A stretch of 56,811 bases of DNA from Clostridia bacterium (GTDB lineage Bacteria > Bacillota > Clostridia > Oscillospirales > Acutalibacteraceae): positions 1-56,811 of the forward strand of contig JAFQGI010000023.1 in NCBI GenBank assembly GCA_017415515.1. Direction: 5' to 3'. The stretch's first letter is position 1; each line of letters opens with the position of its first letter. A program made the translations under genes and the position numbers. A model generated the notes under the pieces. The model was not told the DNA's origin. It saw nothing but the letters and a program-made list of their open reading frames with translations, and did no database searches. Below are positions 6,688-56,811 of this stretch, in pieces.

Positions 6688-6716
6688 ATTATATAATAGC
6701 ACAACTGTTTCACCAA
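6688..6716 (-). promoter_or_regulatory. Promoter of the dnaD-loader-pseudokinase operon
   Basis: On the minus strand, TTGGTG (6716..6711) and TATAAT (6693..6688) are 17 bp apart, with the GTG start of the DnaD-domain gene 38 bp downstream. It is arranged back to back with the thiT promoter. Confidence 0.6.
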
Positions 6717-6741
6717 TTCAAGAGGGAGAGAAAATTTTCCG

Positions 6742-6770
6742 TTGACAACCAACAAGGATGGTGGTATAGT
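6742..6770 (+). promoter_or_regulatory. Sigma-A promoter of thiT
   Basis: TTGACA (6742..6747) and TATAGT (6765..6770) are 17 bp apart, about 25 bp upstream of the TPP riboswitch. Confidence 0.88.
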
Positions 6771-6792
6771 GTAGACACAACCGAACAGACAA

Positions 6793-6881
6793 AACAAGGG
6801 GTGCTGCTCCATTGAGAGTGGCTGAGAGGGCGAATGCCCAACCCTGAACCTGATCCGGATAATGCCGGCGGAGGGATGTTT
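6793..6881 (+). ncRNA. TPP riboswitch (THI element)
   Basis: Contains the conserved THI-box pieces in order: GGGGTGC, CTGAGAGGG, ACCCTGAACCTGATCCGGAT and AATGCCGGCGGAGGGA. It binds thiamine pyrophosphate and turns expression off when thiamine is plentiful. The thiamine transporter gene thiT follows, and a terminator hairpin lies between them, so control is probably by transcription attenuation. Confidence 0.96.
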
Positions 6882-6912
6882 TATCACAAAACACCGACAG
6901 TGTATGCTGTAT

Positions 6913-6944
6913 CACCTCCGTCCATTTTGGGCGGAGGTTTTTTG
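6913..6944 (+). terminator. Riboswitch-controlled intrinsic terminator
   Basis: Stem ACCTCCG(tc) / (gg)GCGGAGGT with loop CATTTT followed by a T-run, just downstream of the TPP aptamer and upstream of thiT. This position fits the expression platform of the riboswitch. Confidence 0.88.
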
Positions 6945-6981
6945 TTTGTCCGATTGAATTTATAAAAAGGAGACAAACAAA

Positions 6982-7791: not shown

Positions 7792-7793
7792 AT

Positions 7794-7821
7794 ACGGGCA
7801 GTCGAGGACGCCCGCCCCTAC
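7794..7821. repeat. Dispersed short repeat B, copy 1
   Basis: 28-bp sequence that is nearly identical (27 of 28) to 14170..14197, with GGGCG-type inverted ends flanking GTCGAGGACGC. Both copies sit just outside gene ends, next to terminator hairpins. Confidence 0.75.
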
Positions 7822-7845
7822 GCTCTCTGTTTTAGACGTAACTAT

Positions 7846-7882
7846 AAAAACCGCTGTCCATCTGTGGGGACAGCGGTTTTTC
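7846..7882. terminator. Bidirectional intrinsic terminator
   Basis: AAAAACCGCTGTCC - atctgtg - GGACAGCGGTTTTT, a perfect stem with A-run and T-run. It separates thiT (plus) from the licD-family gene (minus, stop 7881). Confidence 0.92.
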
Positions 7883-8681
7883 ATTTCATATATTCTCGCC
7901 AATCGCGGTGGGGATCGAAGAAAACGCCCTCGTGATAGGTGGGCTCTTGACGCGGGGTGAGATAATCGCCGTAGGCGGTGGTGAGAATGGTGTCAAAGCC
8001 CACGGGGATCGGAATGCGCGTGCGTTCAAACGGCCACCACACCGCCCCCGCAAAGGCGGTGGCAGGCATCACCCAACGATCCGACTGCGGATCAAAGCTG
8101 AGGAGTGCCACCCGCTTTGTGTTGGAAAAGCGGCGGCACTCCTGCTCCATTTTTCGATAGATCCACCGATACGAAAGCGGGGACAGCAGGTGGTGAAGCG
8201 CCGTTTTGAGTGGGGTCTTGTGAGGGCTGCCGGGGTAGCGCACGGTGGCGGCCAGCCATTTGTTAAAGCGGGCCAGTCGGCGGCGCTGAGCAGTCTGCTC
8301 CGTCGGGTCATCGGGGACAAAATCCAGCGGAAAAACGTCGATAAAGATGCCCTGATGGAAGCGATAGTGCCCCCGCTCCCCCGCCAAGATGGCGGTGGTG
8401 CCGTCCAGACGAAGCTGGGCGTGGCCACGGCTGTAACCCACGTCGTTATACGCCGTTTGCAGAAAAAAAGGAGCGGCAAAATCCGCCGAAAGCGTCAGCA
8501 GACGGTCGTAATCCTTGCGGAACATAAACAGGTCGATGTCGTCGTCCCACGGAATGTAGCCACCGTGACGGACGGCTCCCAAAAGAGTACCGCCACCGGC
8601 AAAATAGGTCAGCCCACGGCGGCGGCAAACCTCGTCAAAGGCGGCCAGCAGCCGCAGCTGTGCCGCCCATACCTCATTCAT
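7881..8681 (-). CDS. LicD-family phosphotransferase
   Basis: LicD proteins belong to the nucleotidyltransferase fold and attach phosphocholine or related phospho-groups to surface polysaccharides or teichoic acids. The 266-residue product shows the family hallmarks: GGGTLLGAVRHGGYIPWDDDIDLFM, in which the glycine loop is at about 29-36 and the acidic metal ligands DDDID at 46-50. The downstream half contains FIDVFPLDFVPDD, also typical. It is the last gene of the surface-polysaccharide operon, and its ATG overlaps the flippase stop (ATGA). The actual group transferred cannot be told: no licA/licC choline genes are seen in the window. Confidence 0.9.
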   Translation of the reverse strand: MNEVWAAQLRLLAAFDEVCRRRGLTYFAGGGTLLGAVRHGGYIPWDDDIDLFMFRKDYDRLLTLSADFAAPFFLQTAYNDVGYSRGHAQLRLDGTTAILAGERGHYRFHQGIFIDVFPLDFVPDDPTEQTAQRRRLARFNKWLAATVRYPGSPHKTPLKTALHHLLSPLSYRWIYRKMEQECRRFSNTKRVALLSFDPQSDRWVMPATAFAGAVWWPFERTRIPIPVGFDTILTTAYGDYLTPRQEPTYHEGVFFDPHRDWREYMK

Positions 8682-10108
8682 CCATCGTCACCGCCTTTTC
8701 GCAAATTTTTCCACACATGCCACACAGGGTCGCGAAACAGGGCGAGCAACACCCCATACACCACCACCCCCACCGCCGTCTGCGCCAGCACCGCCAAAAA
8801 AGTGGGCGGCATTCCCCACCCCACACCCCACGCCGCGGCGAACACCGCCACACCGTAGAGAGCATAGCGTCCCGCCACCCGCAAAAGGCTCCACGCCGGC
8901 AAAAAGGGATGGGTGAACCGCAGGTAGAGAGCGGAAACGGTTAGCTCCGCCACCACCGAGGCCGCCACAGCCCCATAGCCGCCGAAGCGGGGAATCAGCA
9001 ACAAATTCAGCAACACGTTCACCCCTGCGCCGGCGAGGATGGCGCGGTTGCTCAGACGCCGATAGCCGCCGGGGGTGAGGTACAGACTGCCCAGCACGTT
9101 GCTGGTGCCGATGATAAACAGAAGCGGGGCAAACAGCGTCAGCATTCCGCCCGCTTCGGCAAAATCCGCCCCGAAAAAGGACACCGCAAAGCCATAGCCG
9201 CAGGCCATCAGCCCGCCGCACAGCGGAAAGGCCAATGCGCACATAAAGCGGTAGGTGTCCAACAGATGGGTGCGCACCTCCTCCTCCCGCTTTTGCCCGA
9301 ACAAATAGGAAGTGCGTACCCCCACCACCACGTTGAGCGATGTGAGCAACGCCAGCAGCAGGCGGATGATCTTGTGGGCGCTTTCGTAATAGCCGTTTTG
9401 CGCCATGTCGCGGGTGATAACGCCCAGCATGGTCTTGTCCAGCACGGTGTACACCGAGGTGGCGATAGCGGGGACAAAATACACCAACGATGGGCGCAGA
9501 TGAGCAAGAAAACGACCGCTTTGCGCCTTGCCGACCAACCCCCGCACATAAGGCCACAGCAGAAGATTGGACAGCAGGGTGGTGCCCGTCTGGATGAGGG
9601 CGTATACCGCCACGTCCCCCTCGTCCCGCACCAAGGCAAACACCAGCACCACCCCCAGCACCTTCACCGCCAAATGGCGGAGCATCAGGGTGCCGAAGTG
9701 CTCCAACGCCTGAAAAAACCAGGTGAGGTCCAGGCTGGTGGCGAGAATGAGCAGACTCATCGCCCCATACACCCGCCCATCCTCCGCCCACAGGCAAAGC
9801 AGAGCGTACACCGCCCCCGTCAGCAGAGTGGTGACGAAGCGCAGCCGCGTCAGCTCCCAAAACAAGCGGGAGACGGCGACGGGATCGTCCCGCACGCGGG
9901 ACACCTCCCGCAGGCCGTAGGCGCTGAGCCCCAAGGCGGCAAACAGCGAAAACACCGTGGCCACCGACAGCACGTAGCTGTACGTGCCCACCCCATCCGA
10001 ACCAAGCACCCGCGCCACATAGGGAGCGGTGACCAGCGGAGCGAGCATGGACACCAACTGAATGACCACGGTATAGAGATAGTTTTTACGCAGATTGGGG
10101 ACGGTCAC
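8678..10108 (-). CDS. Polysaccharide flippase (Wzx/MATE-like)
   Basis: Moves lipid-linked oligosaccharide across the membrane. The 476-residue product has about 12-14 hydrophobic segments, and its N-terminus (NLRKNYLYTVVIQLVSMLAPLVTAPYVARVLG, about residues 4-35) is characteristic of the PST/Wzx branch, followed by GVGTYSYVLSVATVFSLFAALGLSAYGLREVSR. The GTG start at 10108 is chosen because it has GGAGG upstream and overlaps the stop of the polymerase gene by 4 bp (GTGA). The longer open frame to 10276 runs inside the upstream gene. Translationally coupled to its neighbours in the operon. Confidence 0.92.
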   Translation of the reverse strand: MTVPNLRKNYLYTVVIQLVSMLAPLVTAPYVARVLGSDGVGTYSYVLSVATVFSLFAALGLSAYGLREVSRVRDDPVAVSRLFWELTRLRFVTTLLTGAVYALLCLWAEDGRVYGAMSLLILATSLDLTWFFQALEHFGTLMLRHLAVKVLGVVLVFALVRDEGDVAVYALIQTGTTLLSNLLLWPYVRGLVGKAQSGRFLAHLRPSLVYFVPAIATSVYTVLDKTMLGVITRDMAQNGYYESAHKIIRLLLALLTSLNVVVGVRTSYLFGQKREEEVRTHLLDTYRFMCALAFPLCGGLMACGYGFAVSFFGADFAEAGGMLTLFAPLLFIIGTSNVLGSLYLTPGGYRRLSNRAILAGAGVNVLLNLLLIPRFGGYGAVAASVVAELTVSALYLRFTHPFLPAWSLLRVAGRYALYGVAVFAAAWGVGWGMPPTFLAVLAQTAVGVVVYGVLLALFRDPVWHVWKNLRKGGDDG

Positions 10109-11331
10109 GGCACGACCTCCCTCCCCACCGACAGGAACAGAGCAATCAGCACCAGAGTGAGAAAATGATAGGTGATGTTGCCGCTGAACAGCAGGCCGGC
10201 ATAGATGAGGGCAAAAGCCACCCAACGGCGGCGATCGCCGCGGCTGCGGCGAATCGCCCCCACCGCAGGAAGCCAATACAGCGTGGAAAGATACAGCCCA
10301 CCCTGGGCCAAAATCACCGCCGCGCCCATGCTCAGACCGTTGTTATAGCGGTCGGGATAAGAGAAAAAGGGGATGACGGAGGCATCGTTCCAATACCCCG
10401 TGCCGAACAGCGGCGCGGTGGTAAAGGCGCGCCAACAGGCCACCACATCGTCCAGCCGCATCACTCCCGACACCGAATTGAGCTTATCCCACAGCAGCAC
10501 CGCGGCCGCCAAGGTCATCCCCACCCCTAAGAGGGGGAACAGCCACATCCTCAGCCGTCGGGAAAGCCACTCCGGCGGCCACAGCACATACCGCAGGGTG
10601 AACACCGCCGCCATCAGAAGAAACGCCTTCACCGACACGGTGGTAACCGTCGCCACAGCGAACAGCACACACCGCCACAAGCGAGGGCGGGCGCGGAGCA
10701 ACACCTCGGTGGCGGTAGCGGTCACCAAAAACACCGCGAACCCCGGCGCCTCGGGGAACACACCGCAATTTCGCGGCAGATCCCAACCGAAAAAGGTGAT
10801 CTGCTGTGCCTCATAGTAAAGATGAAAATAGGAAGGGCAGGTGCGCCAACCGCCGCCCCAATAGAACGCCGCCACATCGGTTTTGGGAATCCAATGAAGG
10901 ATCGTCCCGAAAAGATAGAAAAAGAGGGACAAGGCGGTGAGCACCGCCACAATATCCGACAGGCGGTGCAACAAGCGCACACCGCCGTCCGATTGCCCTC
11001 CCATATACAGCGCCAGCAACAGAAGCGGGGTGAAATAATACAGCAGATAGCGGACGGCATTGTAGCGGGTGGCAAGGACATACACCGCCAAAAACACTGC
11101 CAGCACCCCCACCCGCCGCCACAGCCGAGGCGAAACGGGGCCCGTCCCGCACAGGATCAGCACCGCCAACAACGGCACGCCAAAGCGCAGGGCGGTGTTG
11201 CAGTTGGCGGAGGTATACAGGCACCACACGGCGGAATAAAACACCACCAACAGCATAAGGAGATACTCCCCCGCCGCCACCCACCGCGGGCTCAGCCGCG
11301 GGATAACCGATTTTTTTGCCGCCTCAGCCAT
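10105..11331 (-). CDS. Wzy/O-antigen-ligase-like polysaccharide polymerase
   Basis: A 408-residue membrane protein with roughly ten hydrophobic segments and a large hydrophilic loop (about residues 150-200, including the segment around WGGGWRTCPSYFH), the layout of Wzy/WaaL polymerases. These join repeat units on the outer face of the membrane. Sequence conservation in this group is low, so the call rests on topology and context: it lies between glycosyltransferases and the flippase. The ATG at 11331 has AGGAGG seven bases upstream, which makes it overlap the end of the DUF4422 gene by 40 bp, long for this operon but well supported by the ribosome-binding site. Confidence 0.75.
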   Translation of the reverse strand: MAEAAKKSVIPRLSPRWVAAGEYLLMLLVVFYSAVWCLYTSANCNTALRFGVPLLAVLILCGTGPVSPRLWRRVGVLAVFLAVYVLATRYNAVRYLLYYFTPLLLLALYMGGQSDGGVRLLHRLSDIVAVLTALSLFFYLFGTILHWIPKTDVAAFYWGGGWRTCPSYFHLYYEAQQITFFGWDLPRNCGVFPEAPGFAVFLVTATATEVLLRARPRLWRCVLFAVATVTTVSVKAFLLMAAVFTLRYVLWPPEWLSRRLRMWLFPLLGVGMTLAAAVLLWDKLNSVSGVMRLDDVVACWRAFTTAPLFGTGYWNDASVIPFFSYPDRYNNGLSMGAAVILAQGGLYLSTLYWLPAVGAIRRSRGDRRRWVAFALIYAGLLFSGNITYHFLTLVLIALFLSVGREVVP

Positions 11332-12026
11332 AGCCGCACCTCCTGCGCCACCGTTTGCTCCGTATTTTTGACCGGCAGAGCACACACCCGTAAGCTGTGG
11401 TGTGTCACCCACACATTCAGCAAGCGCTCCCCCAAAAAGCCGTAGAGCCGCTGCTGATAGGGGGTGTAATCGGTCATATCCACCTGCCGCTCCACCTGGG
11501 TCAGCACCGCAAACAGCCACCGGCAATAGGCGTCAAACACCTCTCGGGAAGCAATCAGCATATTGTAAAGATGCAGACTTCTGCCATTCATCACCGCATC
11601 AAAAGCAGGGAGCATCTCCCCGCTCACCAGCTCCACCGCCTGACGGGTGAGAAGCAAATCTTTTTCGAAGCCGCTGTGGAGGCAAAACTCCTGCCACGCA
11701 CATTCACGCAACGGCTCGGGGCGGGGCAGGATGACGTCGTGTTCGGCAAGAAGCCGACGGGCGTGTTCCTCGGTAAGGATTTCTCCGTGGTGAGTGAAAA
11801 AACGGCGGTAATGCACCAGCCCTTTGTAGTCGTCACGGGTATTCTGCCATATCCAAAACAGCCCCGTCAACTCGCAATAATGAGGGTTTTTCTCCGAAAT
11901 GTGGATGCCCGTATCATCCCGCAGATACGGCAACGGCGGGTGCAACGCCGCCCCCACCTGCAACGGAACGTAGCCCTTCTCCTGCGGGAGAGGGGCATCT
12001 TTATGCACCGCGATATACACCGCCAT
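11292..12026 (-). CDS. DUF4422 glycosyltransferase
   Basis: Members of this family occur in capsule and exopolysaccharide clusters and are thought to transfer a hexose. The 244-residue product starts AVYIAVHKDAPLP and has the recognisable core GIHISEKNPHYCELTGLFWIWQN (broken here as IHISEKN...YCELTGLFWIWQN) and GLVHYRRFF, all typical of DUF4422. The start is taken as ATG 12026, which overlaps the upstream TGA (TGATG) and has GAGGAG eight bases upstream; GTG 12029 is an alternative. It sits between a GT4 gene and the polymerase. The donor sugar is unknown. Confidence 0.85.
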   Translation of the reverse strand: MAVYIAVHKDAPLPQEKGYVPLQVGAALHPPLPYLRDDTGIHISEKNPHYCELTGLFWIWQNTRDDYKGLVHYRRFFTHHGEILTEEHARRLLAEHDVILPRPEPLRECAWQEFCLHSGFEKDLLLTRQAVELVSGEMLPAFDAVMNGRSLHLYNMLIASREVFDAYCRWLFAVLTQVERQVDMTDYTPYQQRLYGFLGERLLNVWVTHHSLRVCALPVKNTEQTVAQEVRLWLRRQKNRLSRG

Positions 12027-13141
12027 CACACCATCTCCTCATAACGCCGCTGCATCTCCCATGCGGCGGCATGCACATCATAGCCGCAGGCGGTCATCTC
12101 GGCGGCGGTGTCACGACGAGGGGTGGACAGTGCCTTCCGCACCACCTGTGCCCACTGCTCCGCCGTGTCGGTGAGGGGGAGATAGGTGGCAAGGCCCTCT
12201 ATGGGAAGTTCTCTGGTCACACCGGTGGAGGTGACAACGGGAAGCCCTGCCGCCTGCGCCTCCACCCCCACCACGGGCAGACCCTCGAAAAAGGAGGGCA
12301 AGAGCAACAGGTCAAAAGCGTTCATCAGGGCGGGAATATCCTGTCGGGTGCCGAGATAGTGCACCCGATCCTCCAACCCCAGCTTGTCCACCTGCTCCAG
12401 CACCTCGTCCACCAGTTCCCCCTCCCCCGCCAGCACCAGCTGGGCATCGGGCTCTAATTCCGTAAGGGCGTGAAAGACCTCCACAAGAAAGCGGTGATTT
12501 TTTTGCAAGGCAAACCGCCCCACGTGGCCGATGACCGGCTTGTCCTCCACTCCCAGTTGAAGGCGGGTGGCTTGCCGCAGGGTCGGGTCGTAACGCAGTT
12601 TGGCGGTGTCCACCGCATTTTTCATCACCGTATAGTTCCCCTTGCGGATCACCGACGGGGGAAATTTCCACCGCGCCGCCAAATGAGAGCAGGCATAATA
12701 ATCGGTGGGATAACGGAGCAGAGCAGAGCGGGTGACCAAACGCGCCACCCGATAGCGCAGATTGGCAAAGCCGCCGCAATGGGAATGGACGATGACACGG
12801 GCGGCACCGCTACGGCGCGCTAATTTCGCCCCCATCGCCAGGGCGTAGATGCTACCCGAATGGATGTGAACGATGGTATACCGGTGCTCCTCCAAAAAGG
12901 CGGAAAGTCCCCGCCGAAAATATCCCCGATTGTCCTCGCCAAACGGAAAACCGGACGCCCACAGCCGTCCGCCCAGCCGCTCGATCTCCCGTTGCATGGG
13001 GATGGCGCGGTTTTCAAAGGGGGTGTAAAAATCAAACTGCACCCGCTCGCGGTCGACGTGGCGATACATATTCATCAGAAAGCTCTCCTGCCCGCCGCCG
13101 GCAAAAGGTTCTCCGCATACCTGCAAAACGCGTATCGGCAT
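12026..13141 (-). CDS. GT4-family glycosyltransferase
   Basis: Retaining GT-B glycosyltransferase. The 371-residue product begins MPIRVLQVCGEPFAGGGQES, the glycine-rich acceptor loop, followed by IVHIHSG and VIVHSHCGG. The C-terminal half has VIGHVGRFALQKNH, LVLAGEGEL and the family signature FFEGLPVVGVEAQAAGLPVV with the two glutamates (E-x7-E type) that bind the nucleotide-sugar. The ATG at 13141 lies one base after the stop of the upstream GT2 gene. The pattern is close to the EpsF-like branch found in exopolysaccharide clusters; the donor sugar cannot be read from sequence. Confidence 0.92.
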   Translation of the reverse strand: MPIRVLQVCGEPFAGGGQESFLMNMYRHVDRERVQFDFYTPFENRAIPMQREIERLGGRLWASGFPFGEDNRGYFRRGLSAFLEEHRYTIVHIHSGSIYALAMGAKLARRSGAARVIVHSHCGGFANLRYRVARLVTRSALLRYPTDYYACSHLAARWKFPPSVIRKGNYTVMKNAVDTAKLRYDPTLRQATRLQLGVEDKPVIGHVGRFALQKNHRFLVEVFHALTELEPDAQLVLAGEGELVDEVLEQVDKLGLEDRVHYLGTRQDIPALMNAFDLLLLPSFFEGLPVVGVEAQAAGLPVVTSTGVTRELPIEGLATYLPLTDTAEQWAQVVRKALSTPRRDTAAEMTACGYDVHAAAWEMQRRYEEMV

Positions 13142-13142
13142 T

Positions 13143-14024
13143 CTACCGCACCTCCTCAATATGGGGATGAAACCGCCACCCCGCCGCAAAGGAGGAGAGG
13201 ATCACCCGCATCCGCTTCCACTTATCAGGCGAACGCAGCCATATCTTGCCCAAGTGCAGTCCCACCCGCGCAAACAAATACAGCCAGCCAACCACACCCT
13301 CGCGGCGGTAGACGTACACCTCGTTGCGATAGAGATAGGCGTAGCGCCCCATACGGTCAAGGGAGTCGGTGGCGATGTTCACCTTGTTGTTGTGCCGCAT
13401 ATCGTGCAACACCCGACAGCCGTTGACGGCATAGCAGGGATAGCGGCGGGACAGACGGCGGGTATACTCCAAATCGTCCGACCAGATGAAAAACTCCCGA
13501 ATGGGCAGACCCACCTGACGCACCCGATCGGCAGGGATGAAAGCCGACACGAAGGTGGCCATCACCACCGGCACCAAGGGGGTGGTGTAATCGTCCAGCT
13601 TGCGCCACAGGGTGGTCTTTTGGATGTTCATCTGGCAGGGGGTGCCGTCCCGCCAGCGGGCAATACCGGAGAGAAAGCCGTAATTGCCCTCCAAGCGGCG
13701 ATCCGCCCACATAAGGGCGGAAAGGGCGGAGGAATCGGGGATGCAATCGTCATCCATCACCCACAGGCGGTCGTAGCCCGCCTCCACCGCCAGCCGCATG
13801 CCGAAGTTGAAGCCGCCGGCGCCGCCCAAATTCTCACCGGTGTTGCGATAAAGGATTTCCCCCGTCTCCATCAAAGGCGCCAGCGTTTCTGCGGTGCCGT
13901 CGGTGGAGGCATTGTCCACCACCAGTATATCCGTCGAGGCGCCGTGCTGATGTCGCAAGGCGTCGAGGCATTTGAGCAAACTCTCTTTTCGGTTATAGGT
14001 CACCACCACCGCCACCACACGCAT
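13143..14024 (-). CDS. GT2-family glycosyltransferase
   Basis: Inverting GT-A glycosyltransferase. The 293-residue product starts MRVVAVVVTYNRKESLLKCLDAL, then ILVVDNASTDGT and NLGGAGGFNFGMRLA, and carries the metal-binding acidic motif VMDDDCIPD. This combination (VDNASTDG, GGAGGFNFG, DDDC) is typical of the rhamnosyl/galactofuranosyl-transferase branch (GlfT2-like). The ATG at 14024 is preferred over one four codons earlier that overlaps the AAAGGA site. It is the first gene of the six-gene surface-polysaccharide operon; no initiating sugar-phosphate transferase (WbaP/PglC type) is present next to it. Confidence 0.92.
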   Translation of the reverse strand: MRVVAVVVTYNRKESLLKCLDALRHQHGASTDILVVDNASTDGTAETLAPLMETGEILYRNTGENLGGAGGFNFGMRLAVEAGYDRLWVMDDDCIPDSSALSALMWADRRLEGNYGFLSGIARWRDGTPCQMNIQKTTLWRKLDDYTTPLVPVVMATFVSAFIPADRVRQVGLPIREFFIWSDDLEYTRRLSRRYPCYAVNGCRVLHDMRHNNKVNIATDSLDRMGRYAYLYRNEVYVYRREGVVGWLYLFARVGLHLGKIWLRSPDKWKRMRVILSSFAAGWRFHPHIEEVR

Positions 14025-16900: not shown

Positions 16901-17061
16901 GTAACCGCTGATGAAAGCGGTTTGTGATGATCGGTGAGATGTTTTTTCGTCAAAAAAGTCCAAAAGCGCAGGCAACACGGTATGCATTGGCGAGTATTTT
17001 GGGCGATGTTGGCGAAAAAACAGCCACCGAGCATTGCGAACAAGATTGAATCAGTGGTTAC
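16901..17061 (-). repeat. 161-bp imperfect palindromic repeat, copy 2
   Basis: Same length and about 85% identity by eye to 1081..1241, in the same orientation relative to the downstream gene. Ends GTAACCGCTGA / TCAGTGGTTAC; the long arm CGGTGAGATGTTTTTTCGTC pairs with the right arm that reads GGCGAAAAAACAGCCACCG on the plus strand. It ends about 3 bp before the ribosome-binding site of the ABC ATPase gene, as copy 1 does before grpE. Confidence 0.85.
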
Positions 17062-17386
17062 TTGTTCCGATTTCGGTCTCCTGCTACCACTATATGCATT
17101 CCGCCGCCGGTTGTGCGGTAAGAAAAGGAAGAGAGAATTGGCTATTTTTGGGATTTTCCCCCTTGACAATACCACAAGATATAGTGTAGTATAGTATCTG
17201 GTGGTATTTAGGGTTTTTCACCCTGTTTTCACCCTTCGATCCACGTATTTATGGCGACCCCGTGGGGGTAAACGCTTTTTTATGAAGGCTGCTGTGGCCT
17301 ATCGCTTGACAACTGAAAAAGTACCCCGCTGGGAGCGCCTTACCGTGACAACAATTTTTTGACAGAAAGTAGAGGTGTATCCCACA
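17062..17386 (+). other. Gap between ABC operon and rny: promoter region and leader
   Basis: 325 bp without a recognised conserved gene. It holds a probable rny promoter with an overlapping inverted repeat (17163..17206), a GACCCCGTGGGGGT hairpin near 17250, and a 26-codon open frame (17282..17362) with a poor ribosome-binding site. The promoter of the minus-strand ABC operon should also lie here but I could not place it convincingly. Confidence 0.6.
17163..17206 (+). promoter_or_regulatory. Probable rny promoter with overlapping inverted repeat
   Basis: TTGACA (17163..17168) and TAGTAT (17187..17192) with an 18-bp spacer. An inverted repeat with 12-bp arms, TACCACAAGATA (17170..17181) and TATCTGGTGGTA (17195..17206), pairs at 11 of 12 positions and has the -10 box in its 13-bp spacer. 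This looks like an operator for an unidentified repressor. Confidence 0.6.
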
Positions 17387-49901: not shown

Positions 49902-50923
49902 CTATGACCGAAACCCAACTGAAAGAGTGCATCAAAAACGGAGAAGCCAATCTGTACGTATTCTACGGTGCGGAGGGGTATCTTGTGGAGCAATACGCTC
50001 GCCTGGTGGCACGCGAAACGGTAGAGGAGGGCTTTGACGCCTTCAACCTCCAGCGCTTTGACGGGCAGGAGGTCACCGCCGCCGAGCTGGAGGACGCGGT
50101 GGAGGCGCTGCCGCTGATGACCGACCGCAAATGCGTGCTGGTGCGGGATCTGAACCCCTGCGGTGGCGACACCGACCGCCTGCTGACCTTGATGGAGCAG
50201 GTGCCGGAGAGCTGTGTGCTGGTGTTTTGGCAAATGACCGTCCAGCCCGACAGCCGCAAAAACGGATGGAAAGCCTTTCTGAAAATCGCCGGCGAAAAAG
50301 GCGTGGCGATGAAATTTGAGCACAAAGACGTGAACGACATCGCCAAAATGCTGGCGGGCGGCGCCAAGCGCCGCGGCTGTTGTCTGGAGGTGGCGGATGC
50401 CCGCTATCTCACCGAGCAGGTGGGCAACGACCTCAATCTGCTGATTCACGAGCTGGACAAGCTGTGCGCCCTGGCGGGCGAGGGCGGCGAGATCACCAAG
50501 CAGATGATCGACACCGCCTGCCCCAAGAATTTGGAGGCCAAGGTGTTTGATCTGTCCAAGGCTATCCTCTATCGCCGTCAGCAAGAGGCTTTTGACCTGC
50601 TTTACCAACTGCGGGTACAGCGGGAGGAGCCCATCGCGGTGCTGGGCACCCTTTCCAACGCCTTCTCCGACCTCTACCGCGGCAAGGTAGCCACCGCATC
50701 CGGCGTCAACCCCGAGGCGTTGGCACGTGCCTTCAAGAGCTATCAAAAGAAAGAATGGAAGCTGAAAAACGGAGCCAGGGACAGCGCTCGACTGAGCACG
50801 GACGCCCTGCGAACATGTCTGGCCGTTTTGGCTGAGGCCGACACCACCCTCAAACTGCGTAGCGGTGACGAATGGGTGCTGTTGGAGCAGACCGTTGCCC
50901 GGCTGGCGGAGGCGGTGCGATGA
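49892..50923 (+). CDS. holA: DNA polymerase III delta subunit
   Basis: Clamp-loader subunit that opens the beta clamp. The 343-residue product begins MAMTMTETQLKECIKNGEANLYVFYGAEGYL, with the L-Y-x-F-Y-G-x-E start typical of Firmicutes HolA, and includes DAFNLQRFDGQEVTAAELEDAVEALPLMTDRKCVLVRDL (shown by FNLQRFDGQ and LPLMTDRKCVLVRD) and AKVFDLSKAILYRRQQEAFDLL in the C-terminal domain. The ATG at 49892 is preferred for GGAGAG seven bases upstream; ATG 49898, which overlaps the comEC stop, is the alternative. The order comEC-holA is the usual one in Firmicutes. Confidence 0.93.
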   Translation: MAMTMTETQLKECIKNGEANLYVFYGAEGYLVEQYARLVARETVEEGFDAFNLQRFDGQEVTAAELEDAVEALPLMTDRKCVLVRDLNPCGGDTDRLLTLMEQVPESCVLVFWQMTVQPDSRKNGWKAFLKIAGEKGVAMKFEHKDVNDIAKMLAGGAKRRGCCLEVADARYLTEQVGNDLNLLIHELDKLCALAGEGGEITKQMIDTACPKNLEAKVFDLSKAILYRRQQEAFDLLYQLRVQREEPIAVLGTLSNAFSDLYRGKVATASGVNPEALARAFKSYQKKEWKLKNGARDSARLSTDALRTCLAVLAEADTTLKLRSGDEWVLLEQTVARLAEAVR

Positions 50924-51522
50924 AACGGGTGCGGCAAGCCATCGTGGTGGAAGGCAAGCACGATGTCATTCGGGTGCAATCCGCCGTGGAGGCCGTGGTG
51001 GTGCCCACCGACGGCTTTCGCATTTTCAAAGACAAAGAAAAGATGGCAATGCTCCGCCGACTGGCTCAGGTGCGGGGGCTGATCGTGCTCACCGACAGCG
51101 ATTCCGCCGGCGGAGTGATCCGCAACCATCTGCTGTCCTGCATCCCCGCCGAACAACTGCGGCAGGCCTATATCCCACCCGTTAAGGGCAAAGAAAAGCG
51201 CAAACCCGCCCCCTCCAAAGAGGGGTTGCTGGGCGTAGAGGGCATGGACGCCGCCACCGTGGTGGAGGCGCTCAGACGCGGCGGCGCCGTCTTTGAGGAC
51301 GAGGACGGACCCGCATTCCCCTCGTTGGGGTTCACCAAAGCGGATTGGATGGCACTGGGTTTATCCGGCACCGCCGAAAGCAAAGGACGCCGCGAGCGCC
51401 TGGCACAGGCGTTGGGGGTGCCCACCTATCTCTCCGCCAACCGCCTGCTGGAATTGGTGAACGCCACCGTCACGGCGGAGGAATGGGAACGATTAAGGAG
51501 CGTTTGCGATGAACCGATTTGA
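50920..51522 (+). CDS. rnmV: Ribonuclease M5
   Basis: Toprim-domain nuclease that trims 5S rRNA precursor. The 200-residue product has the Toprim start AIVVEGKHDVIRVQSAVEAVV with the catalytic Glu, LIVLTDSDSAGGVIRN (the D-x-D metal motif), and KEGLLGVEGMDAATVVEAL, which marks the RNase M5 family. Its ATG overlaps the holA stop (ATGA). In B. subtilis rnmV is next to ksgA, whereas here it follows holA. Ends inside the start of a gene remnant at 51509. Confidence 0.93.
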   Translation: MKRVRQAIVVEGKHDVIRVQSAVEAVVVPTDGFRIFKDKEKMAMLRRLAQVRGLIVLTDSDSAGGVIRNHLLSCIPAEQLRQAYIPPVKGKEKRKPAPSKEGLLGVEGMDAATVVEALRRGGAVFEDEDGPAFPSLGFTKADWMALGLSGTAESKGRRERLAQALGVPTYLSANRLLELVNATVTAEEWERLRSVCDEPI

Positions 51523-51598
51523 TAACGAAGTGAAACAGCGATGGGGTGACACCGCCGCGTATGCCGCGACAGCCATCAAAGTCTATTGCGATAGATAA
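51509..51598 (+). pseudogene. Remnant of a TipAS-like domain gene at the island boundary
   Basis: A 29-codon open frame from ATG 51509, overlapping the rnmV stop (ATGA), reading MNRFDNEVKQRWGDTAAYAA and ending CDR-stop. The segment F-x-x-E-V-x-x-R-W-G-D-T-x-A-Y matches the start of the TipAS effector domain found in MerR-family regulators and free-standing TipAS proteins. The rest of such a domain (about 100 residues) is absent. The following DNA switches to terminator, tRNA-like and repeat sequence, so the gene was probably truncated by the insertion. A real short peptide is the less likely alternative. Confidence 0.5.
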
Positions 51599-51600
51599 GA

Positions 51601-51634
51601 AACAGGGAGAAGGCTTTTGCCTTCTCCCTGTTTT
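51601..51634 (+). terminator. Intrinsic terminator of the comEC-holA-rnmV operon
   Basis: AACAGGGAGAAGGC - tttt - GCCTTCTCCCTGTTTT, a perfect stem, right before the AT-rich island. Confidence 0.9.
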
Positions 51635-51668
51635 CGGTCGAGGTGACAGGAGTCGAGCCTGCTTGGAC

Positions 51669-51990
51669 TTGTTCCCAAATGATAGGAAAGCCCTACTTTA
51701 TAGACATTTCCGGTTATTTCTAACCCTTTCTGCTCAAAACCACATCCTCTTTGGCGCTTTTGTTTCCGTTGTCTCCGCATGTTCCGATTCGAGATGTGGG
51801 ATAAACTGTGGTCAAAAAAACAACCTCGCAGTGTTGGGGTTTTCAGACGCTGCAAGGTTGTTTTTATTTACAGCTATTCTCTATATCAAAATTTGATCCG
51901 CAGTAGACAAAGAATGAGTTTCTGTTGAAACAGCAGTTGTTCATAAACAGTAAGAGAAGTCATAAACCGAGCTTTGAAAAGTGCAGAAAT
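51669..51990. repeat. Island flanking direct repeat, copy 1
   Basis: Matches 56503..56811 in the same orientation, at about 75-80% by eye. Well-kept blocks include TTTCTGCTCAAAA, CACATCCTCTTTGG, TTTCCGTTGTCTCC and the identical block CTATATCAAAATTTGATCCG + CAGTAGACAAAGAA. A hairpin at 51818..51866 (AACAACCTCGCAG / CTGCAAGGTTGTTTTT) is present in both copies with compensating changes. No open frame fits both copies, so it is non-coding. Confidence 0.85.
51818..51866 (+). terminator. Hairpin with T-run inside island repeat, copy 1
   Basis: AACAACCTCGCAG ... CTGCAAGGTTGTTTTT, 12 of 13 pairs. The equivalent hairpin in copy 2 has a T-A pair replaced by G-C. Likely an intrinsic terminator. Confidence 0.65.
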
Positions 51991-52085
51991 ACGCAAAATA
52001 CCCGAAAGTGTATATTGACTTATAATATTGGCTATGATATAATAGTCTCCGAAAAAAGTGAGTAAATACGCAAAATTTCCGAAAG
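51987..52085 (+). promoter_or_regulatory. Island promoter bracketed by duplicated operator-like motif
   Basis: TTGACT (52015..52020) and TATAAT (52038..52043) are 17 bp apart. The motif AAATACGCAAAAT + 2 bases + CCGAAAG (22 bp in all) occurs at 51987..52008, just upstream of the -35 box, and again at 52064..52085, in the leader touching the ribosome-binding site of the ATPase gene. Copies are direct, 77 bp apart, and differ at only a couple of positions. Suggests binding of a regulator or of one of the island's own proteins. Confidence 0.7.
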
Positions 52086-52095
52086 AGGTTTGGCT

Positions 52096-53394
52096 ATGAT
52101 TGAAAGAAAAAAGTATCTTGAAAGACTCATCGCTAAGAAAGAAAACGGCTTGGTAAAGGTTATTACCGGTATTAGAAGATGTGGAAAATCGTACTTGTTG
52201 TTTAATATTTATAAGGATTATCTTAAGTCCATCGGCGTAGAAGATGAGTGTATCATCTGTCTTGCACTCGATGATGACGAGAATATCAAGTACCGTAACC
52301 CTCTTGAACTTGGCAAGTATATCCGCAGCTTAACTGTAGATGAAAGCAAGACTTATTACGTGTTTCTCGATGAGATTCAAAAGGTTGTTACCATTCAAAA
52401 CCCCTATGTGGAAGGTGTCGAGGATAAGATCGGCTTTGTGGACGTTGTGCTCGGACTGATGAAACACGAAAACATTGACGTATACGTGACCGGCAGTAAC
52501 TCGAAAATGTTATCCTCAGACATTCTCACCGAATTCCGCGGACGCGGTGACGAGATCCGTGTGAATCCTCTTTCTTTTGAAGAGTTCTATCATGCGTACG
52601 AAGGCGATAAGCGTGATGCTTGGCAAGAGTATTATACCTACGGTGGTCTGCCTCTTGTGATGAAGAAAAAAGGACACGAGGAAAAAGCGAAATACCTGGA
52701 GTCTTTGTTTGGTAAAATATATATCGGTGATATTATAGAACGAAACAAGATTTTGCACGATAAATCCGTTCTTGACGACCTTTTGAATATTATATCTTCC
52801 TCCGTAGGATCGCTTACGAATGCGGGCAAGATAGCAAAAACTTTCAAAAGCGAAAGACAAGTTAATATAAGCGATGAAACCGTCAGCAGGTATTTGGACT
52901 TCTTCATTGACGCATTTATGATATATAAAGCCGAACGGTATGATGTTAAAGGTAGAAAATATATTGGATCTCCGCTCAAGTATTATTTCAGCGATGTTGG
53001 TCTGCGTAATGCAAGGCTCAACTTCCGCCAGCAAGAAGAAAATCATATTATGGAAAATATCATCTATAATGAGCTTTGTAACAGAGAGTTTAACGTGGAC
53101 GTTGGCGTGGTTGAGTACTGCTATAAGGACAAAGACAAAAAAAGTAAGCGTGCACAACTGGAAATTGATTTTGTGGCGAATAAAGGAAGTAAAAAGTATT
53201 ATATTCAATCTGCACTTACCGTAAGCGAGAAAGAAAAACGTCAGCAGGAAGTTAGATCTCTTATCCGTGTTGGCGATTCATTTAAAAAGATCGTGGTAGT
53301 GAAAGACAACATTATCCCGTGGCACGATGACAACGGTATTCTCTATGTTGGAATCGAGCAATTTCTTCTTGATGACAGTGCCATTGATATGTAA
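52096..53394 (+). CDS. DUF4143-type AAA ATPase
   Basis: A 432-residue P-loop ATPase of the AAA_14/DUF4143 group, common on mobile elements and in archaea/anaerobes, with no agreed function. It has Walker A GIRRCGKS (25-32), Walker B YYVFLDEIQ (87-95), the sensor segment VTGSNSKMLSSDI (131-143), FRGRGDEIRVNPLSFEEF (148-164), and a C-terminal DUF4143 region with a nuclease-like core (AQLEIDFVANKG, D and E-x-K-like residues near 353-365). The ATG at 52096 is preferred (GAAAGAGG seven bases upstream); a TTG at 52090 is an alternative. AT-rich codon use differs sharply from the genes up to 51.5 kb. It lies 46 bp before the primase-helicase gene, probably one operon. Confidence 0.9.
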   Translation: MIERKKYLERLIAKKENGLVKVITGIRRCGKSYLLFNIYKDYLKSIGVEDECIICLALDDDENIKYRNPLELGKYIRSLTVDESKTYYVFLDEIQKVVTIQNPYVEGVEDKIGFVDVVLGLMKHENIDVYVTGSNSKMLSSDILTEFRGRGDEIRVNPLSFEEFYHAYEGDKRDAWQEYYTYGGLPLVMKKKGHEEKAKYLESLFGKIYIGDIIERNKILHDKSVLDDLLNIISSSVGSLTNAGKIAKTFKSERQVNISDETVSRYLDFFIDAFMIYKAERYDVKGRKYIGSPLKYYFSDVGLRNARLNFRQQEENHIMENIIYNELCNREFNVDVGVVEYCYKDKDKKSKRAQLEIDFVANKGSKKYYIQSALTVSEKEKRQQEVRSLIRVGDSFKKIVVVKDNIIPWHDDNGILYVGIEQFLLDDSAIDM

Positions 53395-53440
53395 AGGAAT
53401 GCATCGCTGATTTTCATCTACTGCGAGGAGAAGTGTTGCT

Positions 53441-56293
53441 ATGGATTATAACGCTTTGTTGCAAAAGTATAATCAAATACTTGAAGAAAATGAGAGCCTC
53501 AGGCGTGAGAACGCAAAACTTCGCAATTTGCTTTCATTGAAAGAAGAGAACGAATACAGCGATGAATGCTTTTCAAACGCTACGGTGACTCAGCACAGTT
53601 CTTCGGATGCCAAAATCGCTTTGTTTCGTTCATTGTTTTGCGGCAGAGAGGATGTGTTTGCACGTCGGTGGCACAGCAAGAGAACTGATAAAAGTGGTTA
53701 TCAACCTGTTTGCGGAAACGAATGGGTAGATGGTTTGTGTGATAAACGCAAATATAAGTGTTCCGTTTGCCCGAATCGAAAATTGTTGCCTTTAACAGAC
53801 GGGGATGTTTTTAAGCATTTGGCAGGTAAGGATGAGTATGGGAGAGATGTCGTCGGTATTTATCCTATGCTGAAGGACGAAGTTTGCAATTTTTTGTGCG
53901 TTGATTTCGATGAAGAAGATTATAAATATGCCGTTACCGCCTTTCGCAATACGTGTAAAGAGTATGATATTCCCGTATGTGTCGAACGATCGCGTTCCGG
54001 TAATGGCGCACATATATGGATATTATTTGCGTCTCCTATTTCAGCGATCCTCGCCCGTAAGTTGGGGAGCGGCCTTTTGACAAAGGCGATGGAAAGCAAT
54101 GCTAGCATTTCATTCAAGTCCTACGATCGGTTATTTCCCAATCAAGATACTGTGCCGGACGGTGGTTTCGGCAATTTGATCGCCTTGCCGTTACAAGGAA
54201 AAGCTCGCAAGATCGGCAATTCGGTTTTTGTGGATGAGAATTTTTTGCCCTATGAAGATCAGTGGGCTTATTTGAGTTGTGTACGAAAAATATCGGCAGA
54301 CACAGTAGAACATTTGGTTAGCGGATTGTGCAAAAACGGAGACCTTGGGACTCTTGTCAGTGATTCTGATGAGAAACCTTGGGAATCACGAAAAGAAGCA
54401 ATGTTATCAGCACTTGATTTTCCAAGTAAGACTACATTCGTTAAAGCTAATATGTTATATGTTCCCACATCGGGGATTTCTCCCGCCGCACAAAACGCAA
54501 TAAAGCGATTGGCTGCATTTCGCAACCCGGATTTTTATCGTGCCCAGGCGATGCGCCTACCTATCTATGATAAGCCCAGAATTATTTGTACGGCGGAAAC
54601 ATCAAAGGAATATATCGGTCTGCCTCGCGGATGCGAAAATGCACTTCGCAAGTTGTTAGAAGATTGTAATGTTGAGTATTCTTTTGATGACAAAACGAAC
54701 TGTGGTCATGTAATCCCTGTGACTTTTAACGGGGTCTTGCGAGAGGAACAGCAACCTGCCGCAGATGCATTACTGGAATACAGTACAGGAGTTTTGTCTG
54801 CAACTACCGCATTTGGCAAAACGGTGATCGCGTCCTATTTAATCAGTAAACGTAAAGTTAATACGCTGATCCTTGTACATACGCAAAGTTTAATGCAGCA
54901 ATGGAAAAAGTCACTTGAGTACTTTTTGAATTTAGAGACAGAACCGCTATTGACTAAGAGAGGGAAAGTGAAAAAGAATTGGTCCCCGGTCGGTGTACTC
55001 GGTGCCGGAAAGAACACATTGTATGGAAATGTAGATGTGGCGGTGATGCAATCGCTGGTAAACGGTGACAAAATAAAAGCGCTTGTGCGGGATTACGGCA
55101 TGATCATCGTAGATGAATGTCATCATGTTTCAGCCGCCAACTTTGAAAAAATACTGAAATTTGCTAATGCAAAGTATGTATATGGACTTACAGCAACACC
55201 AACCCGTCAAGATGGGCATCATCCGATCATATTTATGCAATGCGGACCGATACGTTATAGAGTAGATGCTAAAGCACAATCTGAAAAACGAGCATTTGAG
55301 CATTATCTAATTCCGCGGTTCACCTCATACCGCAGTCTTAATACCGATAAAGGGATTGCGACAATCTATCGGGATTTAGCAGAAAATGAGATTCGAAATG
55401 CACAGATCATCCGAGATGTTGTAAAAGCTTTGCAGCAGGGGCGTTGTCCGATCATTCTGACCGAGCGCCGCGAGCATGTCTTGCATCTCCAAGAGCGATT
55501 ATCTGGTCATTGCAAAAATATCATTACTTTGTTTGGAACTGCCTCTCAAAAAGAACGCAGAGAGACGTTAGAACGGTTGGAATCTATCCCGAGCAATGAA
55601 TCACTTTTGATTATTGCCACCGGAAAATATGTAGGCGAGGGATTTGACTATCCACGTCTTGATTCCTTGTTTCTTGCTCTTCCTATCGCGTGGAAAGGCA
55701 AAGTCGCTCAATACGCAGGCAGATTGCATCGCAATTATCCCGGAAAATCAGAAGTGCAGATATATGATTATGTGGATATCCATATTCCTGTCTTGGAGAG
55801 AATGTATCAAAAGCGCGTGAAAGGATATGCCGCAATCGGCTATAAAATCAAAATAGATTCTGCTCCGAAAACCGAACCGGACCTGATCTATGACGGTAAA
55901 ACCTTTTATAGCTCCTATTGTCAGGACATCCGAACTGCATCAAAAGAAATTTTGATCGTCAGTCCTTTTATGAGAAAAGGACGTATTACTCAGCTTATGA
56001 GATTTTTAACCGAGGCTGTTCTGAACGGCATTTCTGTAACCGTCGTCACCCGTCCTCCGGAAGATTTTAAGAAGAAAGACTGCGAAACGGTTGAGAAAAA
56101 CATTTCAACACTTCAAGAGTATGGAGCCAAGGTTGTTACGAAATCGGGATTTCATCAAAAGTTTACGGTTATTGACGGCGAAGTGGTGTGGTACGGCAGT
56201 GTGAACTTTTTGAGTTTTGGGATCTCCGAAGAAAGCATTATGCGTTTCACCAATGCGGATATCGCAGGTCAGTTGATGGATACTGTACTGTAA
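53441..56293 (+). CDS. TOTE-type primase-helicase-PLD nuclease fusion protein
   Basis: A 950-residue protein. Order: leucine-rich coiled coil (1-36); archaeo-eukaryotic primase domain of the TOTE conflict-system type (about 55-290) with Cys91/100/107/110 as a possible zinc site, the catalytic FLCVDFDEED (Asp155, Asp157), and ERSRSGNGAHIWILF (His191), then SYDRLFPNQDTVPDGGFGN; linker; SF2 helicase (about 430-800) with Walker A TTAFGKT (455-461), DECHH (558-562), TATPTR (584-589) and QYAGRLHR (757-764); and a C-terminal phospholipase-D-like domain (about 825-945) with one HxK motif, GFHQKFTVIDGEVVWYGS (His905, Lys907). One HxK suggests a dimeric nuclease. GAGGAG precedes the ATG. Likely a DNA- or RNA-targeting defence or conflict effector (inference). 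Confidence 0.9.
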   Translation: MDYNALLQKYNQILEENESLRRENAKLRNLLSLKEENEYSDECFSNATVTQHSSSDAKIALFRSLFCGREDVFARRWHSKRTDKSGYQPVCGNEWVDGLCDKRKYKCSVCPNRKLLPLTDGDVFKHLAGKDEYGRDVVGIYPMLKDEVCNFLCVDFDEEDYKYAVTAFRNTCKEYDIPVCVERSRSGNGAHIWILFASPISAILARKLGSGLLTKAMESNASISFKSYDRLFPNQDTVPDGGFGNLIALPLQGKARKIGNSVFVDENFLPYEDQWAYLSCVRKISADTVEHLVSGLCKNGDLGTLVSDSDEKPWESRKEAMLSALDFPSKTTFVKANMLYVPTSGISPAAQNAIKRLAAFRNPDFYRAQAMRLPIYDKPRIICTAETSKEYIGLPRGCENALRKLLEDCNVEYSFDDKTNCGHVIPVTFNGVLREEQQPAADALLEYSTGVLSATTAFGKTVIASYLISKRKVNTLILVHTQSLMQQWKKSLEYFLNLETEPLLTKRGKVKKNWSPVGVLGAGKNTLYGNVDVAVMQSLVNGDKIKALVRDYGMIIVDECHHVSAANFEKILKFANAKYVYGLTATPTRQDGHHPIIFMQCGPIRYRVDAKAQSEKRAFEHYLIPRFTSYRSLNTDKGIATIYRDLAENEIRNAQIIRDVVKALQQGRCPIILTERREHVLHLQERLSGHCKNIITLFGTASQKERRETLERLESIPSNESLLIIATGKYVGEGFDYPRLDSLFLALPIAWKGKVAQYAGRLHRNYPGKSEVQIYDYVDIHIPVLERMYQKRVKGYAAIGYKIKIDSAPKTEPDLIYDGKTFYSSYCQDIRTASKEILIVSPFMRKGRITQLMRFLTEAVLNGISVTVVTRPPEDFKKKDCETVEKNISTLQEYGAKVVTKSGFHQKFTVIDGEVVWYGSVNFLSFGISEESIMRFTNADIAGQLMDTVL

Positions 56294-56502
56294 AAGTATC
56301 AATTTAAGATTCAATAATAATCGACGATGTACTGTTGATGTTGAACAAATCAGCAAGACTTTGCGACAGATGAATCAAGTGGATAAACTGTGGTCAAGTG
56401 TCAAAAAGATGATAGGTTCGAATAAAGTTCAAATGCTGAAATATCGCATAAAATAAGGCTTTTTCCTGAATTTGAGCCTGCCAAAATCCGACGTTTTTCG
56501 AC
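56294..56502. other. AT-rich intergenic segment with an out-of-frame coding remnant
   Basis: No complete gene. One frame, shifted relative to the preceding gene, is open from about 56292 to the stop at 56456 and gives protein-like sequence (ISKTLRQMNQVDKLWSSVKK in the middle) without a good start or ribosome-binding site. It looks like the tail of a lost gene. Confidence 0.35.
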
Positions 56503-56811
56503 ACTGTCCCAAATGGTAAAAGATACCTGATTTATAGACGTTTCCGGTTGTTTCTAACCATTTCTGCTCAAAATCACATCCTCTTTGGTGCTTTTATTTC
56601 CGTTGTCTCCACCTATTCCGGTCCTGGAAGTGGGATGATATGTGGTCAAAACAATCGCGCAGTCATTGGATTTTCGCCAACACTGCGCGGTTGTTTTAAT
56701 TTCTATATCAAAATTTGATCCGCAGTAGACAAAGAAGAAATTTTTTTTCATCGCAACCTGTACGTAGACAGCAAGCAAAAAACGGTAGCAATTTTGCAAA
56801 GTGTAGAAATA
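56503..56811. repeat. Island flanking direct repeat, copy 2 (cut by window edge)
   Basis: Diverged copy of 51669..51990 in the same orientation. It keeps TTTCTGCTCAAAA, CACATCCTCTTTGG and the block CTATATCAAAATTTGATCCG + CAGTAGACAAAGAA, and ends at the window edge in GTGTAGAAATA, where copy 1 reads GTGCAGAAATA and then continues into the bracketed promoter. Confidence 0.85.
56648..56696 (+). terminator. Hairpin with T-run inside island repeat, copy 2
   Basis: AAACAATCGCGCAGT ... ACTGCGCGGTTGTTTT, pairing along its length with one G-T wobble. Equivalent to 51818..51866 with base changes that keep the stem. Confidence 0.65.

Follow-up and report, generated by a model that had tools for sequence, protein, structure and literature searches.

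A probable integrase-less, CIME-like unit with exchangeable defence-type genes beside a tRNA-Pro-like sequence in a Clostridia bacterium

Cis-mobilizable elements (CIMEs) are decayed elements that have attachment (att) sites, lack recombination and transfer genes and accrete in tandem, and their gene-free forms, the microCIMEs, measure 130-220 bp (PMC7563491). In Streptococcus salivarius they stand in tandem with integrative and conjugative elements (ICEs) and integrative and mobilizable elements (IMEs). Several site-specific islands with low-GC cargo also lie in tandem at one RNA gene, ssrA, in Dehalococcoides, 15 of them without an integration module (PMC3146451). ICETh2 of Thermus thermophilus carries an archaeo-eukaryotic primase (AEP) with a helicase between repeats of a tRNA 3' end (PMC7693054), and the TOTE conflict systems are made up of TPR, OB, TBP and Effector components (PMC12458937). 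Our subject is a 56,811-nucleotide contig of a Clostridia bacterium (contig JAFQGI010000023.1, assembly GCA_017415515.1; hereafter the window) and the AT-rich island at its end, which carries two open reading frames (ORFs): ORF1, an ATPase gene, and ORF2, which encodes an AEP, a helicase and a phospholipase D-like (PLD) domain in one protein. The nearest known kind to this island is the CIME. The window is the whole of contig C22 in an assembly of 39 contigs, 1.50 Mb and 68% completeness, and because it is the entire contig the island reaches the contig end. Genomes are labelled G and loci L throughout.

We read the island, with a probability of roughly 0.6, as a site-specific unit of CIME-like type that lacks an integrase and exchanges its defence-type genes one at a time. 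It comprises a 4834-bp unit (51673-56506), delimited by direct repeats, and the start of another; this follows from the left core, the tRNA-Pro-like flanks, a junction in genome G284 and the presence of tRNA-Pro near the bordering host gene within the genus. An earlier note on this DNA had described a sharp drop in GC after 51.6 kb and direct repeats on both sides, and these observations are confirmed; its reading of the island as mobile is supported, with a precise boundary. GC falls from 0.618 at 50001-51000 to 0.392-0.435 across 52001-56000, the repeats measure 148 nt at 51673/56507 (82% identity) and 52 nt at 51875/56697 (87%), or 78% when taken as one block, and the same unit ends are found in other genomes. 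What the note missed is that the repeats are the ends of a site-specific unit beside a tRNA-Pro-like half. Mobility of the island is well supported, and the unit boundaries, tandem copies, exchanges at ORF boundaries and domain motifs can be read directly. The unit and its immediate flank are laid out as follows.

51635-51672, minus strand: degenerate tRNA-Pro(UGG)-like 3' half (T arm and acceptor), which borders the insertion on the host side; it matches at 27 of 38 positions, with 0 of 300 shuffles scoring as high
51673-51680, no strand: left core TCCCAAAT, the reverse complement of TTTGGGA, the anticodon loop of tRNA-Pro(UGG), with one base added; homology between genomes and copies starts here
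51673-51926, plus strand: left-end block, with a second copy at 56507-56748, strong in seven further genomes of the order
51816-51865, plus strand: strong terminator-like hairpin within the left end (-25.9 kcal/mol; z -5.9 for 51815-51875)
52096-53394, plus strand: ORF1, AAA_14/DUF4143 ATPase, 432 aa (stop included in the coordinates), by Pfam and PADLOC (PDC-S01, 6.6e-106)
53441-56293, plus strand: ORF2, 950 aa, with AEP (58-291), ResIII/XPB-type SF2 helicase (432-589) and single-HKD PLD (826-945) domains, by Pfam and motifs
56378-56506, plus strand: right-end block, conserved ahead of internal left ends (twice in G161, once in G096) and at L133
56507-56811, plus strand: second left end, the start of the next unit, cut by the contig end (from repeat alignment)

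Conservation among the aligned left-end copies begins at TCCCAAAT, and TCCCAAA is the reverse complement of TTTGGGA in the tRNA-Pro(UGG) anticodon loop. The motif GTGGGATAAACTGTGGTCAA occurs three times (up to 3 mismatches) against none in 100 shuffles. Each of four internal left ends (at 56507 in the window, two in G161 and one in G096) is preceded by a right end finishing TTTTCGACACTG; outer copies are preceded by host sequence, with no right-end block. A BLAST query matched the left end in 14 of 394 genomes of the order, strongly (E <1e-50) in eight including the window's own, and two of the other seven strong genomes (G161 and G096) hold several units in a single contig, with three consecutive left ends in G161. 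Because only two candidates per genome were scored in this search, copies are undercounted. A class-wide pattern search for the left end, which differs in sensitivity from the BLAST query, gave the window's genome only (1 of 391). No plasmid or phage matched the left-end DNA, and exact patterns of it were absent from viral contigs. The hairpin within the left end may shield the cargo against transcription from outside. Distant left ends at L117 and L118 have the core CCCGAA, which by eye fits the anticodon loop of tRNA-Pro(CGG).

Because ARAGORN found no complete tRNA in the window, the case for a tRNA half relies on comparing the flank with shuffled sequence; no Rfam family reached its gathering score within 51400-56811. 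In six of eight genomes the outer left flank is more like a tRNA-Pro(TGG) 3' half than any of 300 shuffles in each, and none of four internal junctions shows this likeness. The flank of G201 is identical at 38/38 positions to the tRNA-Pro(TGG) found in G250 and in three of the window's sister species; G161 matches at 36/38 and the window at the 27/38 given above. A right-hand junction is seen in G284 (L151), where a variant right end is followed by TCCCAAA and a tRNA-Pro 5' half, and ARAGORN places tRNA-Pro(TGG) within about 1.1 kb of the island-bordering host gene in three of nine other species of the genus (L154, L156 and L160). L097 (G072), which carries an AlbA_2 gene and ORF2, has on its left a tRNA-Pro(TGG) 3' half equal to that of G182 over 38 bases, followed by TCCCAAA.

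These junctions also bear on whether an AT-rich fragment was attached to the wrong contig during assembly or binning. The island lies at a contig end that falls inside a repeat, the assembly is 68% complete, and among the 14 genomes with left-end matches the window's own is the sole member of its family, all of which would fit such an artefact. Against this, the junction of a tRNA-Pro half with TCCCAAAT is found again in independent genomes, tRNA-Pro lies near the same host gene in sister species, and in G008, which has the most similar toprim-type protein (85%), related left-end sequence follows the gene for it. An artefact is thus very improbable.

ORF2 relatives also occupy other integration sites. 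The one at L028 has an intact tRNA-Pro(GGG), accompanied by a phage-type integrase gene, on one side and repeated tRNA 3' halves on the other; there (3967-13382) the tRNA-Pro(GGG) 3' halves stand in tandem and a 450-bp, 94% identical repeat brackets a broken ORF2 relative. The ORF2 relative of L017 lies between repeats that read as a tRNA 3' end. L016 (557-7949) has three tandem repeat copies, the first starting inside an AbrB/SpoVT-like gene (named by eye), and shares its repeats with L045; a DUF4143 ATPase occupies one of its units and ORF2 the next, and L024 has the two genes adjacent.

Upstream of tRNA-Pro genes the relatives show what may be called mini-units. A second TTTGGGA occurs 186-198 bp before tRNA-Pro(TGG) in five of seven loci called by ARAGORN (G820, G250, G006, G002 and G003), and the same spacing is found in two loci without an ARAGORN call (G005 and G284); in five of these seven positive loci it is exactly 198 bp. 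The seven sequences between the two cores are gene-free and align throughout, with right-end-like sequence, TTGACCACAGTTT(A/G)TCCCAC in the middle and the tRNA-Pro 5' half at the end. The spacing is absent from G116, and in G182 it is 182 bp with a different sequence that does not align. At L134 (8991-11311, G820), an intact tRNA-Pro(TGG) has the 198-bp gene-free mini-unit on its 5' side, followed by a SIR2_2/ThsA-like protein.

The likeness to CIMEs extends to att-like ends, the lack of recombination and transfer genes and tandem accretion at one gene, and that to microCIMEs to the gene-free mini-units of 186-198 bp (PMC7563491). Putative recombination sites, namely TCCCAAAT and the conserved ends, occur on both sides at 51673 and 56507, as in other genomes. 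By ORF and Pfam analysis two long genes fill the unit, neither of them an integrase or relaxase nor any other recombination, conjugation or mobilization gene. The differences from CIMEs are the core in the tRNA-Pro anticodon loop, the tandem units without a visible ICE or IME, and cargo made of defence-type modules of one or two genes, with exchange at the borders of ORFs; no parental ICE or IME with these ends was found. The ssrA islands of Dehalococcoides differ in using a serine recombinase and the T-loop of tmRNA and in carrying dehalogenase cargo (PMC3146451). An integron gene cassette consists of one promoterless ORF and attC with an integron integrase in cis; compared with it in gene content and promoter, the present unit has two genes, a promoter-like site and no integrase. 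Prophage identity was considered and dropped, as neither of the two genes is a phage structural gene.

Sister units carry the ATPase with other genes. The DNA of the window is homologous to that of G161 and G096 from the left end onwards and ceases to be so exactly at 53394, where the ATPase stop codon ends; over the ATPase gene the DNA identity is 86% (G161) and 88% (G096), and the encoded ATPases are 95-96% identical to ORF1. After this shared gene, G161 has an HNH gene and G096 a DUF6933 gene, and neither has ORF2. The cargo of G161 consists of the ATPase and HNH genes, a Fic gene with a ResIII/Mrr helicase, and WYL and WCX genes; that of G096 is the ATPase with DUF6933. PADLOC assigns the Fic protein to SoFic (1.2e-36), the WYL pair to CRISPR-associated WYL regulators and DUF6933 to PDC-S63.

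The domain calls of the earlier note are upheld by Pfam: AAA_14 (1.1e-27) and DUF4143 (1.5e-19) in ORF1, and AEP-TOTE (PF22548, 1.3e-97), ResIII (5.3e-20) and PLDc_2 (2.2e-12) in ORF2; folds were assigned from such profile matches. The start codon of ORF1 is the TTG at 52090 or the ATG at 52096, and its stop lies at 53394. Its PDC-S01 match spans residues 1-427 of 432, so that the AAA_14 P-loop and DUF4143 parts cover the whole protein, and G25, G30, K31, D92 and E93 are invariant in ten aligned ATPases. We take PDC to denote a candidate class only in PADLOC, and the ORF1 gene differs from PDC-S01 as listed there in having a conserved operator pair and in standing in a unit with ORF2. A live nuclease in the ATPase was considered and dropped; the window-type subfamily has YIQS where the L024 type has LEVK, a difference that we presume to matter for nuclease activity. 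No confirmed relative of ORF1 was found in viral contigs. The duplicated operator noted earlier stands upstream of the gene.

51977-52008, plus strand: operator-like repeat, copy 1, 84% identical to copy 2
52015-52043, plus strand: promoter-like site TTGACT-17-TATAAT, 11 of 12 consensus matches, the best in the region
52054-52085, plus strand: operator-like repeat, copy 2, 84% identical to copy 1

The two copies thus flank the best promoter-like site on either side; promoter-like sites overall are no commoner than in shuffles. Relative to the start of the ATPase gene, the operator pair lies at about -108 and -31 in the window, G161, G096 and L120, and because this position is kept in four of five close ATPases (L122 has one copy) the pair belongs to the ATPase. 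More distantly, L193 has two weaker copies and L194 none, and 2 of 2200 shuffled upstream sequences matched the operator search. The ATPase may regulate its own gene through these operators. In L193, L194 and L120 the DNA shared with the window is the operator region and the ATPase gene only.

The earlier note had gone further and proposed a mobile defence module in which the 950-residue protein would open and cut invading nucleic acid under regulation or targeting by the ATPase. A dedicated two-gene defence system of this kind would have the DUF4143 ATPase for sensing or targeting and the primase-helicase-PLD protein for opening and cutting invading DNA, and its two genes would travel as a pair. 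The two-gene operon itself is real, as ORF2 starts 46 bp after ORF1 on the same strand. Viewed from the ATPase, there are 54 matches in 38 of the 394 genomes, of which 25 were examined, window included, with the downstream side visible in 24; ORF2 follows in one of these, the window itself, which argues against a dedicated pair. So does the lack of any same-strand ORF within 50 bp downstream in 13 of 20 loci among those examined. Direct repeats bracket four of those 20 (L193, L194, L201 and L210). At L201 (2169-3796, G058) a lone DUF4143 ATPase is framed by a 93% repeat matching the 3' end of the 584-codon gene that precedes it, which reads as a 1.5-kb integrase-less unit at a protein gene.

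Viewed from ORF2, the partners vary too. The ORF2 start is usable in 28 loci, namely the window, L005-L029, L031 and L043 (L040, L042, L045, L068 and L073 were dropped since the start is missing or broken). Among these, a same-strand gene ends within 50 bp upstream in 17, the partners of L009 and L024 being placed from DNA homology. DUF4143, the partner whose frequency the earlier note had proposed to check, stands directly upstream in five (the window, L012, L013, L024 and L029), L012 and L013 being 99% identical in DNA, and in the other 23 it does not. Schlafen AlbA_2 is found in four loci (L008, L011, L017 and L020) and a SWIM-type protein in two (L043 by Pfam, L027 as its homologue). YhcG, a DUF6036 nucleotidyltransferase, AAA-ATPase_like/PDDEXK_9, a MerR-type helix-turn-helix (HTH) protein, a 138-residue protein behind HTH-DUF3990 and an 85-codon ORF at L014, which overlaps a repeat and is doubtful as a gene, occur at one locus each. 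With 16 of 31 rows of the ORF2 tree labelled by partner, there are nine changes, against a possible minimum of 7 and a mean of 10.1 in shuffles, of which 37 of 200 were as low; the partner thus hardly tracks ORF2 descent; SWIM was the only clustered group of those tested. Partners differ even between sister ORF2 genes whose DNA is 81-87% identical. For the nearest relative of the window's ORF2 protein (84%), DNA homology is confined to that ORF; with L009 it is 81% over the ORF alone, and L022 and L029 share 87% from about -11, with different upstream genes. In the pairs window/L009 and L022/L029 the homology sets in no more than about 11 bp from the start of ORF2, and in L010/L011 about 160 bp inside it.

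In favour of a dedicated pair stand the operon with its 46-bp gap, the presence, immediately before ORF2 in L012/L013, L024 and L029, of DUF4143 ATPases with 19-50% identity to ORF1, and a frequency of DUF4143 at that position above what a count of five proteins in 20 genomes, the window's own included, would suggest. Set against the exchange of partners on both sides, such a system is rather improbable and, as a specific two-gene system, not supported; the broader interpretation of the earlier note is partly supported. Because the upstream gene is exchangeable, a combinatorial defence cassette describes the cargo better than a dedicated pair.

The ORF2 protein also has parts known from several described systems. 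Its AEP domain matches the effector domain of TOTE systems by Pfam and also PADLOC PrimPol (1.3e-87) and, in the PDB, 7nqd. Because no TPR, OB or TBP component is present in the unit (by Pfam on ORF1 and ORF2, with the next unit out of view), membership in TOTE fails, and ORF2 differs further in adding a PLD domain and pairing with variable ATPases and regulators. The PLD part resembles MkoC of Mokosh (MkoB/MkoC; 4.4e-12) and DrmC of DISARM (6.7e-08). Only this part matches, MkoC covering residues 815-926 with its PLD end, whereas the helicase part fits other families and an AEP domain is present; a Mko-type helicase joined to a PLD nuclease is therefore not what ORF2 encodes. Nor does it look like a CRISPR-associated PrimPol, which would stand next to cas genes or a CRISPR array: 51500-56811 holds no family of repeats at regular spacing, and neither ORF1 nor ORF2 has a cas domain, although no search for cas genes was made in the remainder of the contig.

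In the helicase, the C-terminal part (659-765, Helicase_C) is slightly under the Pfam cut-off, and XPB is a relative in the PDB. The AEP DFD motif is kept in 26 of 33 rows (six lack that part and one is broken), helicase motifs in nearly all rows covering them, and the PLD motif HxKx4D in 21, being degenerate in nine and not covered in three. A single HKD motif suggests a dimer. ORF2 homologues were found at 69 loci in one search and, outside the window, at four more in another. Those of Proteobacteria and most Actinobacteria lack the PLD domain, their matches stopping near residue 801, and 32 loci reach or contain the PLD region (27 Clostridia-type, L031 of Coriobacteriales and the four of the second search). 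Plasmids gave 500 matching records, and among the 20 matches listed all end at residue 801-842, without the PLD part; of 1680 phage records none covers more than 80% of the query, and the 20 matches listed cover the middle helicase part only.

An alternative is that the cargo serves element maintenance: ORF2 would be a protein for replication or repair that belonged to former mobile elements, the ATPase would be a stabilising gene that regulates itself, and neither would be a defence factor. XPB/Rad25 are the best solved relatives of the helicase, and we know of no phage challenge, both of which count for this view, as does the replication role suggested for primase-polymerases of mobile elements (PMC7693054). 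Opposed to it are the unit itself, with two long genes and neither integrase nor relaxase, and the SoFic, WYL and ResIII/Mrr genes in sister units. Loss of the ICETh2 primase-polymerase, moreover, spared element replication and raised transformation (PMC7693054). Maintenance cargo is thus unlikely. A defence role is plausible, since related array units carry those SoFic, WYL and ResIII/Mrr genes and an AEP with a helicase limits uptake of environmental DNA in another tRNA-associated element (PMC7693054). ICETh2 differs in having separate proteins and its own integrase and excisionase, and is likened to ORF2 here by description. As a hint only, an AAA_14/DUF4143 gene is among those changing with plasmid DNA in T. 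thermophilus (PMC4406477).

For the CIME-like unit that we favour, we infer a recombinase acting in trans, defence, and the roles of both proteins. A tyrosine recombinase from another element would recombine the 7-8 bp core TTTGGGA common to unit ends and tRNA, and units would accrete head to tail. The cargo is modular: the ATPase gene, which comes with a promoter of its own and both operator copies, is followed by an ORF-sized effector. The AEP and XPB-like helicase of ORF2 would engage and open foreign or abnormal DNA, which its single-HKD PLD domain, probably as a dimer, would cut, and the upstream gene, here the ATPase, would gate or sense for it. Action on foreign, incoming or abnormal DNA is the most likely function of ORF2.

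Several observations weigh against this reading. The flank of G250 is only weakly tRNA-like (6 of 300 shuffles equal it), and in G208 the unit ends lie at non-tRNA sequence (221 of 300 shuffles are as good). Units truly splitting tRNA-Pro would require another copy in the cell, and a second tRNA-Pro was not found in G000 by a narrow pattern that also missed ARAGORN tRNAs in three sister species. No complete array with both junctions was found in one contig, most left-end contigs ending in or near a repeat. No integrase was found in arrays of the exact window end type, such as the tandem units of G161 and G096; integrases occur only near related ends (L119) or at another site, the tRNA-Pro(GGG) of L028. 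The ORF2 sisters L027/L043 and L012/L013 retain their partner. Because the PLD motif is degenerate in nine of 33 rows, cutting may not be essential for ORF2. Finally, direct repeats around ORF2 homologues are not specific: they occur on both sides in 8 of 33 ORF2 loci and in at least 6 of 40 control loci without PLD, and their use as a special mark of ORF2-PLD loci was dropped.

The host side of the boundary has two further features, of which the first is the gene fragment recognised by the earlier note.

51509-51598, plus strand: truncated ORF of 29 codons, overlapping the end of a toprim-type gene (read directly)
51600-51633, no strand (called on the minus strand): terminator-like 15-bp perfect hairpin between the host gene fragment and the island (hairpin and terminator calls)

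The 29-codon ORF may belong to the TipAS-type (TipAS-like) regulator family, and its neighbour is a putative toprim/RNase M5-like gene. Distant from the island, a 166-bp direct repeat (88% identical) occurs at 1081-1246 and 16901-17066.

It is tempting to extend the CIME-like reading to a working cassette system, in which units built on the tRNA-Pro anticodon loop dock at the gene-free mini-unit, are moved in trans by a tyrosine recombinase, stack complete defence operons head to tail and swap single ORFs (ATPase, AEP-helicase-PLD, HNH, Fic and WYL), so forming an integron-like stockpile of immunity genes and not merely decayed islands; this extension is doubtful. No literature describing a pair of DUF4143 with AEP-helicase-PLD, or arrays of CIMEs with defence genes, came up in a search that most subscription papers lay outside. 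Defence genes are known to cluster. The present locus cautions against naming a two-gene system from one operon. Its unit boundaries, likely core site and gene-by-gene exchanges are readable from sequence, which makes the way in which single modules enter islands and recombine in them testable.

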